Source: an uncultured Eubacteriales bacterium (GTDB taxonomy: Bacteria > Bacillota > Clostridia > Christensenellales > Christensenellaceae). From it: a stretch of DNA of 26,926 bases. Positions 11,630-14,880 of this stretch are shown piece after piece; the first letter of the stretch is position 1, and each line of letters opens with the position of its first letter. The notes below the pieces were generated by a model. The model was not told the DNA's origin. It saw nothing but the letters and a program-made list of their open reading frames with translations, and searched no databases. Location: positions 1 to 26,926 of the forward strand of contig CACZNR010000009.1 in assembly GCA_902782475.1 (NCBI GenBank), written 5' to 3'. A program made the translations under genes and the position numbers.

Positions 11630-11656
11630 TTGACATATACCCCCATAGGGTATACT
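11630..11656 (+). promoter_or_regulatory. csoR-copA promoter with CsoR operator
   Basis: TTGACA at 11630-11635 is the -35 box. TATACT (11651-11656, 15-bp gap) or TACTAT (11653-11658, 17-bp gap) is the -10. Between and overlapping them lies TATACCCCCATAGGGTATA (11636-11654), with 7-bp inverted arms TATACCC/GGGTATA. This matches the known G/C-tract operator of CsoR repressors, so the operon is expected to be shut off until Cu(I) binds CsoR. Confidence 0.9.
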
Positions 11657-11691
11657 ATATCTGTGATATTCAGATGAATGGAGAAACAGAG

Positions 11692-11988
11692 ATGGCTGAT
11701 TGCTGTGAAATAAAACTGAAACACAGGACTGAAGATGAGATAAAGAGCCTCGTAAACAGGCTCAGCAGGATAGAGGGACAGGTCAGAGGACTTAAGAAGA
11801 TGGTGGAAGAAGATGCCTACTGTACTGACATACTGGTACAGTCACAGGCTGTAGGTGCAGCCATAAACTCATTCAACAAGGATCTGCTGGCATGTCACAT
11901 AAGGAACTGTGTGGTTGAAGATGTAAGAAACGGAAAGAACGAAGTTATAGATGATCTGGTGGCTACCATCCAGAAGCTCATGAAATAA
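11692..11988 (+). CDS. csoR: Copper-sensing transcriptional repressor CsoR
   Basis: All-helical DUF156 repressor that leaves DNA when it binds Cu(I). The ligands are Cys44 (YCTDILVQ), His69 and Cys73 (ACHIRNC), the classical C-H-C set. RLSRIEGQVRGLKKM (23-37) is the family DNA-binding helix. I chose ATG 11692, which has GGAG eight bases upstream and gives 98 residues; an in-frame ATG at 11674 has no ribosome binding site and lies close to the expected transcript start. The operator just upstream indicates autoregulation. copA begins ten bases after its stop. Confidence 0.95.
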   Translation: MADCCEIKLKHRTEDEIKSLVNRLSRIEGQVRGLKKMVEEDAYCTDILVQSQAVGAAINSFNKDLLACHIRNCVVEDVRNGKNEVIDDLVATIQKLMK

Positions 11989-11998
11989 GGAGAGGACA

Positions 11999-14776
11999 AT
12001 GACACAGTATAACGTTACCGGTATGAGCTGTGCAGCATGTGCTGCCAGGATAGAAAAAGCAGTCTCAAAGGTGAATGGTGTCACATCCTGCACCGTGAGC
12101 CTCCTTACCAATTCCATGGGAGTAGAAGGAAGCGCTTCTGAAAGCGATGTGATAAAGGCAGTGGTAGATGCCGGATATGGTGCAAAGGTCAAGGGACAGG
12201 AAAGTGTAAAAAGATCTGCGGAAGAAGATGCACTGGAAGACCACGAGACTCCTGTCCTCAGGAGAAGGCTCATAGCATCCATAGGCTTTCTTGCAGTGCT
12301 CATGTATGTCTCCATGGGACATATGATGTGGGGATGGCCTCTTCCTGCATTCTTTAATGACAATCATGTTGCAATGGGCATCGTACAGATGCTCCTTGCC
12401 ATCATAGTAATGATCATAAACAAGAAGTTCTTTGTCAGTGGTTTCAAGTCACTTCTTCACGGAGCACCAAACATGGATACCTTGGTGGCAATGGGTTCAA
12501 GTGCAGCATTTGTATACAGCACATTTGCACTTCTAATGATGACAAGGGCTCAGGTGGACATGGATACAGAGAAAGTCATGGGATACATGCATGAGTTCTA
12601 TTTTGAATCTGCGGCCATGATACTTACTCTTATCACTGTTGGAAAGATGCTGGAGGCCAGGGCAAAGGGAAAGACCACAAGTGCCCTCAAGGGACTTATG
12701 AGCCTTGCACCAAAGACTGCTACTGTCGTAAGAAACGGTGAAGAAGTCACGGTCCCTGTGGAGGAAGTCAGGAAGGGCGATATATTTGCAGTAAGGCCGG
12801 GAGAGAGCATCCCAGTGGACGGGATCATTCTGGAAGGGTCCTCTGCTATAAATGAGTCTTCACTTACAGGTGAGAGCATACCTGTGGACAAGACTAAAGG
12901 AGACATGGTATCTGCTGCAACCATAAACACTTCAGGATATATAAGATGCGAAGCTACAAGAGTAGGGGAAGATACGACCCTTTCACAGATAATACAGATG
13001 GTATCGGATGCTGCTGCCACAAAGGCACCTATAGCCAAGGTGGCTGACAAGGTAAGCGGGATCTTCGTTCCGGTGGTCATAGGAATAGCGACTGTTACAC
13101 TAATAGTATGGCTGCTTCTGGGACAGACCTTCGGTTATGCCATAGCAAGGGCAATATCAGTGCTTGTAATAAGCTGCCCATGTGCACTGGGACTTGCAAC
13201 GCCTGTTGCCATAATGGTGGGCAACGGAAAAGGTGCAAAGAATGGGATACTGTTCAAGACAGCCGTTTCACTTGAAGAAACAGGAAAAGTGCAGATCATA
13301 GCACTGGACAAGACAGGCACCATCACATCAGGGGAGCCAAAGGTCACTGACATCATACCTGCTTCAGGTTTCAGCGAAGAAGAACTCATGGATCTTGCAT
13401 ATGCCCTTGAAGCAAAGAGCGAACATCCTCTTGCACGTGCCATAGTGGAGAAGGCAGTGGAAGCAGGAAGGGAAGCCAAGGAGATATCTGGGTTTGAGGC
13501 ACTGCCTGGAAACGGCCTTAAGGGACAGCTTGATGGTAAAATGCTCTATGGTGGAAGCAAGAGATATATAACAGGCAAAGTAAAGGCTGACAGTGAGATA
13601 ATAAGTGAGGCTGACAGGCTGGCCGAGGAAGGCAAGACTCCGCTCCTCTTTGCAAAGGAGGACAGATTTGCAGGACTCATAGCCGTAGCTGACGTCATAA
13701 AGCCTGACAGTGCCGAAGCGATAAAAGAACTCAAGAACATGGGCATAAGGGTAGTCATGCTCACAGGTGACAATGAAAGGACTGCAAAGGCCATCGGAAA
13801 GTCTGCCGGTGTGGATGAGGTGGTTGCAGGCGTGCTTCCTGAAGGAAAGGAAAGCATAATAAGGGAACTTCAGAAGCATGGCAAGGTAGCTATGGTTGGT
13901 GACGGCATAAATGATGCTCCGGCTCTTACAAGGGCTGACATGGGTATAGCCATAGGAGCAGGAACCGATGTGGCCATAGATGCAGCTGACATAGTACTGA
14001 TGAAGAGCTCATTAAAGGATGTGGCTGCTGCAGTGAGGTTATCAAGGGCGACTCTGACCAACATCCATGAGAATCTGTTCTGGGCATTCATATACAATTC
14101 TATAGGTATACCTCTTGCCGCAGGTGCGCTCATTCCTTTCGGAATAACCCTGAACCCGATGTTTGGAGCTGCAGCAATGAGCCTTTCAAGCTTCTGTGTA
14201 GTAAGTAATGCCCTCAGACTCAATTTCTTCAGGATGTATGATCCTTCAAGGGACAGAAAACACAGGAATGCCATTGAGACTGACATATTTGAAGTAAATG
14301 AGGAACAGGAAGACAGAAAACTCACGAAGATCATGCACATAGAAGGCATGATGTGCGAACACTGTGAAGCAACTGTAAGGAAGGCTCTTGAAGCTGTACC
14401 AGAAGTTGTTGCCGCAGAAGTAAATCATGTAAAAGGTACAGCAGAGATCACACTGGACGGACCTGTGGATGATGCTGTTCTTATAAAGGCCGTGGAGGAT
14501 AAGGACTACAAGGTGATATCTGTGGAAGATCCTTCAGGGGCAGATAAAAAAGTGGAGGAAAAGAATATGAAACATACTGTAGTCATCGAAGGAATGATGT
14601 GCATGCACTGTGAAGCAACGGTCAAGAAAGCACTGGAAAACATCGAAGGTATCGAAAGTGCAGAAGTGAGCCACGAGAAGGGAACAGCTGTCATAACTAC
14701 AACATGTGACGTTGATCCTGAGGTCATAAAAAAGGCTGTGGAGGACAAGGATTACAAGTTCGTTTCCATGGACTGA
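11999..14776 (+). CDS. copA: Copper-exporting P1B-type ATPase with one N-terminal and two C-terminal HMA domains
   Basis: Pumps Cu(I) out across the cytoplasmic membrane. The 925-residue protein starts with an HMA metal-binding domain (GMSCAAC, 8-14). It has the intramembrane copper motif CPC at 393-395, the phosphorylated Asp437 in DKTGT, TGDN, and GDGINDAPAL around 634-643. The C-terminal NSIG and FGAAAMSLSS motifs mark Cu+ pumps. Unusually, the usual end of CopA is followed by a linker and two further HMA domains with GMMCEHC (783-789) and GMMCMHC (865-871). These two domains resemble each other (both contain KAVEDKDYK) and look like a tandem copy. Most CopA proteins end after the last membrane helix. 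AGGAGAGG precedes the start. There is no separate copZ gene in the operon; see the internal start at 14567. Confidence 0.96.
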   Translation: MTQYNVTGMSCAACAARIEKAVSKVNGVTSCTVSLLTNSMGVEGSASESDVIKAVVDAGYGAKVKGQESVKRSAEEDALEDHETPVLRRRLIASIGFLAVLMYVSMGHMMWGWPLPAFFNDNHVAMGIVQMLLAIIVMIINKKFFVSGFKSLLHGAPNMDTLVAMGSSAAFVYSTFALLMMTRAQVDMDTEKVMGYMHEFYFESAAMILTLITVGKMLEARAKGKTTSALKGLMSLAPKTATVVRNGEEVTVPVEEVRKGDIFAVRPGESIPVDGIILEGSSAINESSLTGESIPVDKTKGDMVSAATINTSGYIRCEATRVGEDTTLSQIIQMVSDAAATKAPIAKVADKVSGIFVPVVIGIATVTLIVWLLLGQTFGYAIARAISVLVISCPCALGLATPVAIMVGNGKGAKNGILFKTAVSLEETGKVQIIALDKTGTITSGEPKVTDIIPASGFSEEELMDLAYALEAKSEHPLARAIVEKAVEAGREAKEISGFEALPGNGLKGQLDGKMLYGGSKRYITGKVKADSEIISEADRLAEEGKTPLLFAKEDRFAGLIAVADVIKPDSAEAIKELKNMGIRVVMLTGDNERTAKAIGKSAGVDEVVAGVLPEGKESIIRELQKHGKVAMVGDGINDAPALTRADMGIAIGAGTDVAIDAADIVLMKSSLKDVAAAVRLSRATLTNIHENLFWAFIYNSIGIPLAAGALIPFGITLNPMFGAAAMSLSSFCVVSNALRLNFFRMYDPSRDRKHRNAIETDIFEVNEEQEDRKLTKIMHIEGMMCEHCEATVRKALEAVPEVVAAEVNHVKGTAEITLDGPVDDAVLIKAVEDKDYKVISVEDPSGADKKVEEKNMKHTVVIEGMMCMHCEATVKKALENIEGIESAEVSHEKGTAVITTTCDVDPEVIKKAVEDKDYKFVSMD
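14567..14776 (+). CDS. Possible CopZ-like copper chaperone made from an internal start within copA
   Basis: In the copA frame, Met857 (ATG 14567-14569) is preceded by GGAGG at 14554-14558 with an eight-base gap, as good as any start in the window. Initiation there would give a complete 69-residue HMA protein beginning MKHTVVIEGMMCMHC and ending DYKFVSMD. That is the size and layout of free CopZ, the cytoplasmic Cu(I) carrier. The csoR-copA operon lacks the separate copZ often found next to copA. The sequence shows the SD, ATG and frame; that ribosomes use them is inferred. It could also be a relic of a former separate copZ that fused to copA. Confidence 0.4.
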   Translation: MKHTVVIEGMMCMHCEATVKKALENIEGIESAEVSHEKGTAVITTTCDVDPEVIKKAVEDKDYKFVSMD

Positions 14777-14880
14777 TAATAATGGATAAAAGAAAAGAAG
14801 ACACAGGTAAAATAAAATTCTATTTTTGAACGAAGTTAAATAAAAAAGGAGTATGCTGTGTCTTCTTCGTCTGTTATTAT
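14776..14880. repeat. Long imperfect inverted repeat just after copA
   Basis: AAGAAGACACAG (14795-14806) is an exact inverted copy of CTGTGTCTTCTT (14856-14867), 49 bases apart. Outside it, ATAATAA (14776-14782) faces TTATTAT (14874-14880). Inside, AAAATA and TATTTT can form a small hairpin. The whole could fold into a long stem acting as a copA terminator or be a small palindromic element. No clear T-run follows directly. Confidence 0.55.

Follow-up and report, generated by a model that had tools for sequence, protein, structure and literature searches.

Does a copper-pump gene that runs on into copper-chaperone domains still deliver the free chaperone? This question is raised by the csoR-copA operon of the window, by which we mean the whole stretch of DNA analysed (26,926 nt). 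We propose that copA ends in a fused copZ gene with a retained ribosome-binding site, which would be used as an internal start giving free CopZ. Judged from sequence, we assign this reading a probability of roughly 85%. The features of the locus are the following.

11630–11658, forward strand: sigma-70-like promoter of csoR-copA (TTGACA, 17 nt, TACTAT), from the promoter scan
11636–11654: palindrome TATACCC-N5-GGGTATA between the −35 and −10 elements of the csoR-copA promoter, from the sequence
11692–11988, forward strand: csoR, copper-sensing repressor of the CsoR family (Pfam PF02583, 99.9 bits)
11999–14776, forward strand: copA, 925 aa, Cu(I)-type P1B ATPase with CopZ-like domains fused C-terminally, from the open reading frame and Pfam and NCBIfam matches
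12008–12178, forward strand: N-terminal HMA (PF00403, 61.6 bits; 71.5 bits to the N-HMA profile versus 44.1 to the CopZ profile)
14333–14512, forward strand: C1, the inner C-terminal HMA, CopZ-like (PF00403, 54 bits; 66.0 bits to the CopZ profile versus 35.9 to the N-HMA profile)
14554–14558, forward strand: internal Shine-Dalgarno (SD) sequence GGAGG, 8 nt before the internal ATG (−9.3 kcal/mol)
14567–14776, forward strand: nested copZ, from ATG (Met857) in the copA frame to the copA stop, 69 aa (HMA, 58.3 bits)
14579–14758, forward strand: C2, the last C-terminal HMA, a CopZ domain (PF00403, 57.4 bits; 74.9 bits to the free-CopZ profile versus 37.6 to the N-HMA profile)

The palindrome resembles the operator type of CsoR repressors and is a likely CsoR operator. 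For csoR itself, the list of open reading frames gives a start at 11674 (SD −3.5), but ATG 11692 has the better SD (−6.4) and is the likelier start. copA begins 10 bases past the csoR stop and consists of one N-terminal HMA, the P-type ATPase core and the two C-terminal HMAs, C1 and C2. The preliminary description of this DNA had reported that copA runs on into two C-terminal HMA domains, that Met857 is preceded in frame by GGAGG with an eight-base gap, and that initiation at 14567 would give a 69-residue protein of CopZ size; domains, spacing and reading frame were all confirmed. It had further associated the internal start with the HMA pair, which holds for the last HMA only: C1 lacks a start signal and carries CTC at the position equivalent to the ATG of the last HMA. 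The promoter scan found no promoter-like site on the forward strand in 11659–14750, and so none ahead of 14567 inside copA; a separate short copZ transcript is therefore not supported.

The anti-SD energy at 14567 is the strongest among the 41 in-frame Met positions of the copA open frame, which include the start of copA itself (−8.2 kcal/mol). Since 10.8% of synonymous recodings equal or beat the GGAGG site, the SD of the window is weak evidence by itself, and the case beyond chance rests on the relatives. The nested product has the HMA fold with a CxxC metal site (GMMCMHC; 58.3 bits to PF00403 against a cut-off of 24.8), and its relatives of solved structure include CopZ (6ff2, E 6e-9). When scored against profiles of 25 free copZ proteins and of the N-terminal HMAs from unfused copA genes, the nested domain is closer to free CopZ than to the ATPase N-terminal HMA (values for C2 above). 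It does not reach the curated CopZ cut-offs of NCBIfam (59.7 of 85 bits for NF047957, 46.2 of 91 for NF033795), which control proteins show to be strict and not decisive: of four separate operon copZ proteins, one reaches the cut-off of a CopZ model (91.1 of 91), another passes TIGR00003 alone and two pass neither. Two more short database relatives of the nested product likewise pass no NCBIfam CopZ model. A 69-aa database protein, P0001, is identical to nested CopZ and is listed from a contig of 27,324 bases; either some gene prediction placed its start at Met857 or the gene also occurs in split form, and we do not count this entry as evidence.

We compared relatives in two kinds of sample: (i) a tail-blind search, in which only the last transmembrane part of the pump (109 aa, without the tail) served as query against 243 genomes of the class and 199 of the phylum, and (ii) searches with a query that included the tail. 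From the tail-blind matches listed, which were ranked by likeness to the pump of the window, 100 (class) and 60 (phylum) stretches were hand-picked, in most cases a single one for each genus or family; 99 and 54 of these were readable, giving 153 copA genes. The tail-inclusive relatives comprise one set of 29 that were read and another of 80 fetched records, 78 of them read, and the 80 are mostly Clostridia (64) with Erysipelotrichia, Negativicutes and two Spirochaetia. As their query contained the tail, they say nothing on the frequency of fusion, for which only the tail-blind samples are used. Left out were L001–L006 (the window's own genome), L076, L082 and L210, in which the script did not recognise the pump end (L210 can be seen to be a fusion, its last HMA being preceded by a Met), and, from the phylum sample, L251, L254, L255, L256, L268 and L275; L170 was excluded as a false inner HMA.

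Among the matches listed, a C-terminal CopZ-like domain is present in 73 of the 153 tail-blind copA genes (58 of 99 in the class, 15 of 54 in the phylum), and every one of the 73 has a start codon at the beginning of CopZ: 71 ATG, one GTG (L123) and one TTG (L196), so that both departures from ATG are themselves bacterial start codons. This codon lies 9–13 residues ahead of the first Cys of the last HMA in all 73 and exactly 11 residues ahead in 60. An SD of −6 kcal/mol or stronger accompanies it in 68 of 73 genes, and one of −5.5 or stronger in 72. Across all fused copA genes read, the window included, a start codon stands at the right offset in 178 of 181; the exceptions are L028 and L061, which have none, and L014, whose ATG is at the wrong offset. 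A few fused genes have weak SDs (L010, L068, L158). The SD and ATG are thus kept in relatives, which the preliminary description had proposed as a check. Met at the nested start forms a sharp conservation peak with an entropy of 0.25 bit, and the adjoining linker is near-random (~3.2–3.7 bits at positions −10 to −6). The idea that relatives of the same genus have stop codons between copA and copZ was dropped, as the reverse-complemented loci are fused and carry SD and ATG.

The nucleotides of the SD are conserved beyond the encoded amino acids. In the 73 tail-blind genes the mean SD energy is −9.47 kcal/mol versus −6.46 for synonymous recodings, with a p-value (6e-12) that is too small, because related sequences are not independent. 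For 161 distinct upstream stretches, recoded with the codon usage of the gene itself, the corresponding means are −9.60 and −6.25 kcal/mol; other internal Mets average −3.13 and all positions together −3.40. An SD and a start codon inside a longer open reading frame, conserved beyond the need of the protein, are one mark of an in-frame gene within a gene made by internal initiation, and this mark is present at the 3′ end of copA.

Unfused and duplicated copA genes provide natural controls. In the class sample, a separate HMA open reading frame of 67–75 aa lies within 1.5 kb downstream of 25 of the 41 unfused copA genes, at a median gap of 38 bases and with a mean SD of −10.4; in the phylum sample, a separate copZ follows 10 of 39 unfused genes. 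The free-CopZ and N-HMA profiles assign all 164 fused C-terminal domains to CopZ and none of 129 N-terminal domains. Since both the profiles and the separate counterparts identify the tail as copZ, loss of a stop codon is the natural reading of its origin, and the stop loss between copA and copZ suggested in the preliminary description fits these data. Where tails carry several HMAs, the start signal is found at the last HMA only: ATG is present at none of the 11 inner C-terminal HMAs, and GTG lies in range at three, each time with a weak SD (−2.0 to −3.8). The C-terminal CopZ-like domain has grown in tandem to three copies in L038, L039 and L041 and to two in L036, L037, L095, L172 and the window; the last HMA of L095 looks shortened, with a nested open reading frame of 54 residues.

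We placed 100 pumps on a tree built by a quick method, with SH-aLRT as the sole branch support and midpoint rooting. The window falls in a starred clade of 32 pumps, of which 30 are fused, two are without the domain and none has a separate copZ. All 30 fused members have the start codon (29 ATG, one GTG), and 28 have an SD of −6 kcal/mol or stronger. The tree as a whole requires a minimum of 10 changes of the fused state, four of them forced by starred branches.

These data bear on the rival explanation that survives best, namely that the site is a leftover of the copZ start from before the fusion, now unused, and that the domain serves the pump solely as a tethered metal-binding module. P1B ATPases commonly carry tethered HMA domains, and the reading frame leaves no doubt about the fusion. 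Against a disused start stand its persistence in the clade of 32 pumps without a separate copZ, beside a near-random linker, the retention of the synonymous positions of the SD, and the replacement of Met only by GTG or TTG in the tail-blind sample. Moreover, the duplicated inner copies did lose the signal, which shows the outcome when selection is absent. A site so old, in a variable linker, would presumably be lost if it were neutral, and we regard an unused relic as unlikely.

Two further explanations can be weighed against the codon phase of the SD core. The core falls in phases 0, 1 and 2 in 116, 36 and 4 of the 164 fused genes, eight having no core, and in 43, 26 and 2 of the 73 tail-blind genes. 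Different peptides, KE(E/D), Gly-Gly and Arg-Arg, are therefore encoded by the same nucleotides. At the 74 sites with Glu at −4 and a codon starting with G at −3, G is the last base of the preceding codon in 65 (33.6 expected), and GAG encodes the Glu in 66 (33.1 expected); for the like peptide pattern elsewhere in the same genes, the values are 1012 of 3510 (956 expected) and 1585 (1515 expected). The second codon of the nested open reading frame ends in A in 142 of 177 genes (77.9 expected), and A-ending second codons are a bias of real start sites. Folding of the start region is weak, at −1.35 kcal/mol versus −2.62 for synonymous recodings (n = 59); the wider gap to other parts of the gene (−1.5 versus −9.7) comes mostly from the amino-acid make-up.

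One of the two explanations is that CopZ is released by proteolysis in a charged linker and that the start signal is incidental. The linker, which varies in length (12–105 residues) and is rich in K, E and N, is for these reasons exposed. What is conserved, however, is a run of nucleotides in three codon phases together with start codons, not a peptide motif, which makes proteolytic release very improbable. The other takes the SD-like run for a pause signal, or for a Lys-Glu-Glu linker motif at the protein level, rather than for an initiation site. At −5 and −4, Lys and Glu occur most often, and the amino acids account for about two thirds of the SD strength (the synonymous mean of −6.46 out of −9.47), but Gly-Gly or Arg-Arg substitute with the same nucleotides, the distance to the start codon is kept and the second codon is biased towards ending in A, as at starts. 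We give a pause or linker motif as little credence as proteolysis.

Use of the internal start is thus strongly indicated by the comparison of sequences. Ribosomes starting at 11999 would produce CopA with two CopZ-like domains tethered C-terminally, and other ribosomes, starting at the internal SD-ATG (14554–14567) on the same copper-induced mRNA, would produce the free 69-aa CopZ, which would supply the pump, and perhaps CsoR, with Cu(I). Both the making of the short product, in whatever amount, and its copper transfer are predictions, the carrier role being taken from knowledge of the family. The arrangement would have arisen when the stop between copA and a following copZ was lost; the fusion would be old, and selection on the internal start would maintain it.

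A single copA gene that yields the copper pump together with a chaperone some 70 aa long is familiar from the E. coli CopA(Z) system, in which programmed −1 frameshifting in copA was reportedly described by Meydan and by Drees, both in 2017. The routes differ: in E. coli the N-terminal HMA is ended by a frameshift, and in the window the C-terminal HMA would be begun by a second start codon. E. coli copA makes its pump and 70-aa chaperone by −1 frameshifting (PMC5009743, PMC9548414). That frameshifting releases the N-terminal HMA as the chaperone here too, with the C-terminal site uninvolved, is extremely improbable: the window copA has no X XXY YYZ heptamer, the only slippery form scanned, after the N-terminal HMA within its first 200 codons, its three heptamers lying at codons 222, 223 and 910.

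Internal starts that yield a C-terminal domain as its own protein are likewise documented for Rpn (RpnL/RpnS) and Cas10d/Cas11d (PMC10327210) and for infB, clpB and mrcB (PMC11005335); evidence of a second start is given for 42 E. coli genes (PMC11005335). These cases resemble copA in that an in-frame internal SD and start codon give a separate C-terminal domain. The short Rpn product is described there as an antitoxin of the long one, whereas that of copA would be a metal chaperone serving the long product; and, unlike for Rpn, the ancestral separate gene still adjoins copA in relatives. The copA-copZ and csoR-copA-copZ operons of Firmicutes (PMC4938975) share gene order, CopZ size and copper regulation with the window, which differs by having no stop between copA and copZ, so that copZ is invisible to gene callers and ortholog counts. 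A known Cu ATPase also bears an extra C-terminal metal-binding domain; in the species concerned, CopZ is a separate protein joined to an iron-sulfur domain. The component parts are thus known. In the literature we searched on copper and internal initiation, which was mostly outside subscription journals, we found no report of CopZ made by internal initiation in copA.

The finding is real and broader than the preliminary description had seen. Across much of Bacillota, CopZ is likely nested in copA rather than absent: the fusion would be ancient, the old copZ start held by selection through the history of large clades, and one gene would give a fixed or copper-adjusted ratio of tethered-CopZ pump to free CopZ. 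A 2016 study of CsoR regulation in gut Firmicutes reported that CsoR regulates its own expression and CopA but no CopZ, and that a CopZ homolog is present in only one of the ten commonest Clostridiales genera (PMC4938975); nested CopZ, if true, could explain the missing copZ. It would also be a second route, besides the E. coli frameshift, from one copA to pump and chaperone, and a clear evolutionary case in which copA persists in unfused, fused and duplicated forms. Such proteins would be missed by gene callers that assign one start per open reading frame. Hiding a small soluble partner at the 3′ end of the gene for its target, by a fusion that keeps the ribosome-binding site, may be a general strategy.

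The preliminary description had stated that no separate copZ lies in the csoR-copA operon. This is correct, as no copZ adjoins csoR-copA within the window; other free HMA genes lie outside the operon in the same genome. An HMA open reading frame was counted as free at E 1e-6 and a length of no more than 150 aa, and as strong at 50 bits or more. The genome of the window, whose assembly is 85% complete and might thus miss a copZ, contains two such frames besides the nested one, at 34.3 and 28.1 bits. They encode 82 aa (L004) beside a ZIP-like transporter frame and 72 aa (L005) beside an ArsR-like frame, the neighbours being named by eye, and they may serve other metals. Among 22 fused genomes picked by hand out of 58, six are without any free HMA open reading frame and 16 have one or more; given these and the two in the window's genome, the nested copy is not always the sole free CopZ-like gene. 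A strong free HMA gene occurs in 2 of the 22 fused genomes versus 10 of 16 genomes with neither a fused nor an adjacent copZ (Fisher p 0.001, kinship ignored). Downstream of copA, at 14802–14868, AAGAAGACACAG and its inverted partner CTGTGTCTTCTT lie ~45 bases apart, and this pair is possibly an end signal or a small element.
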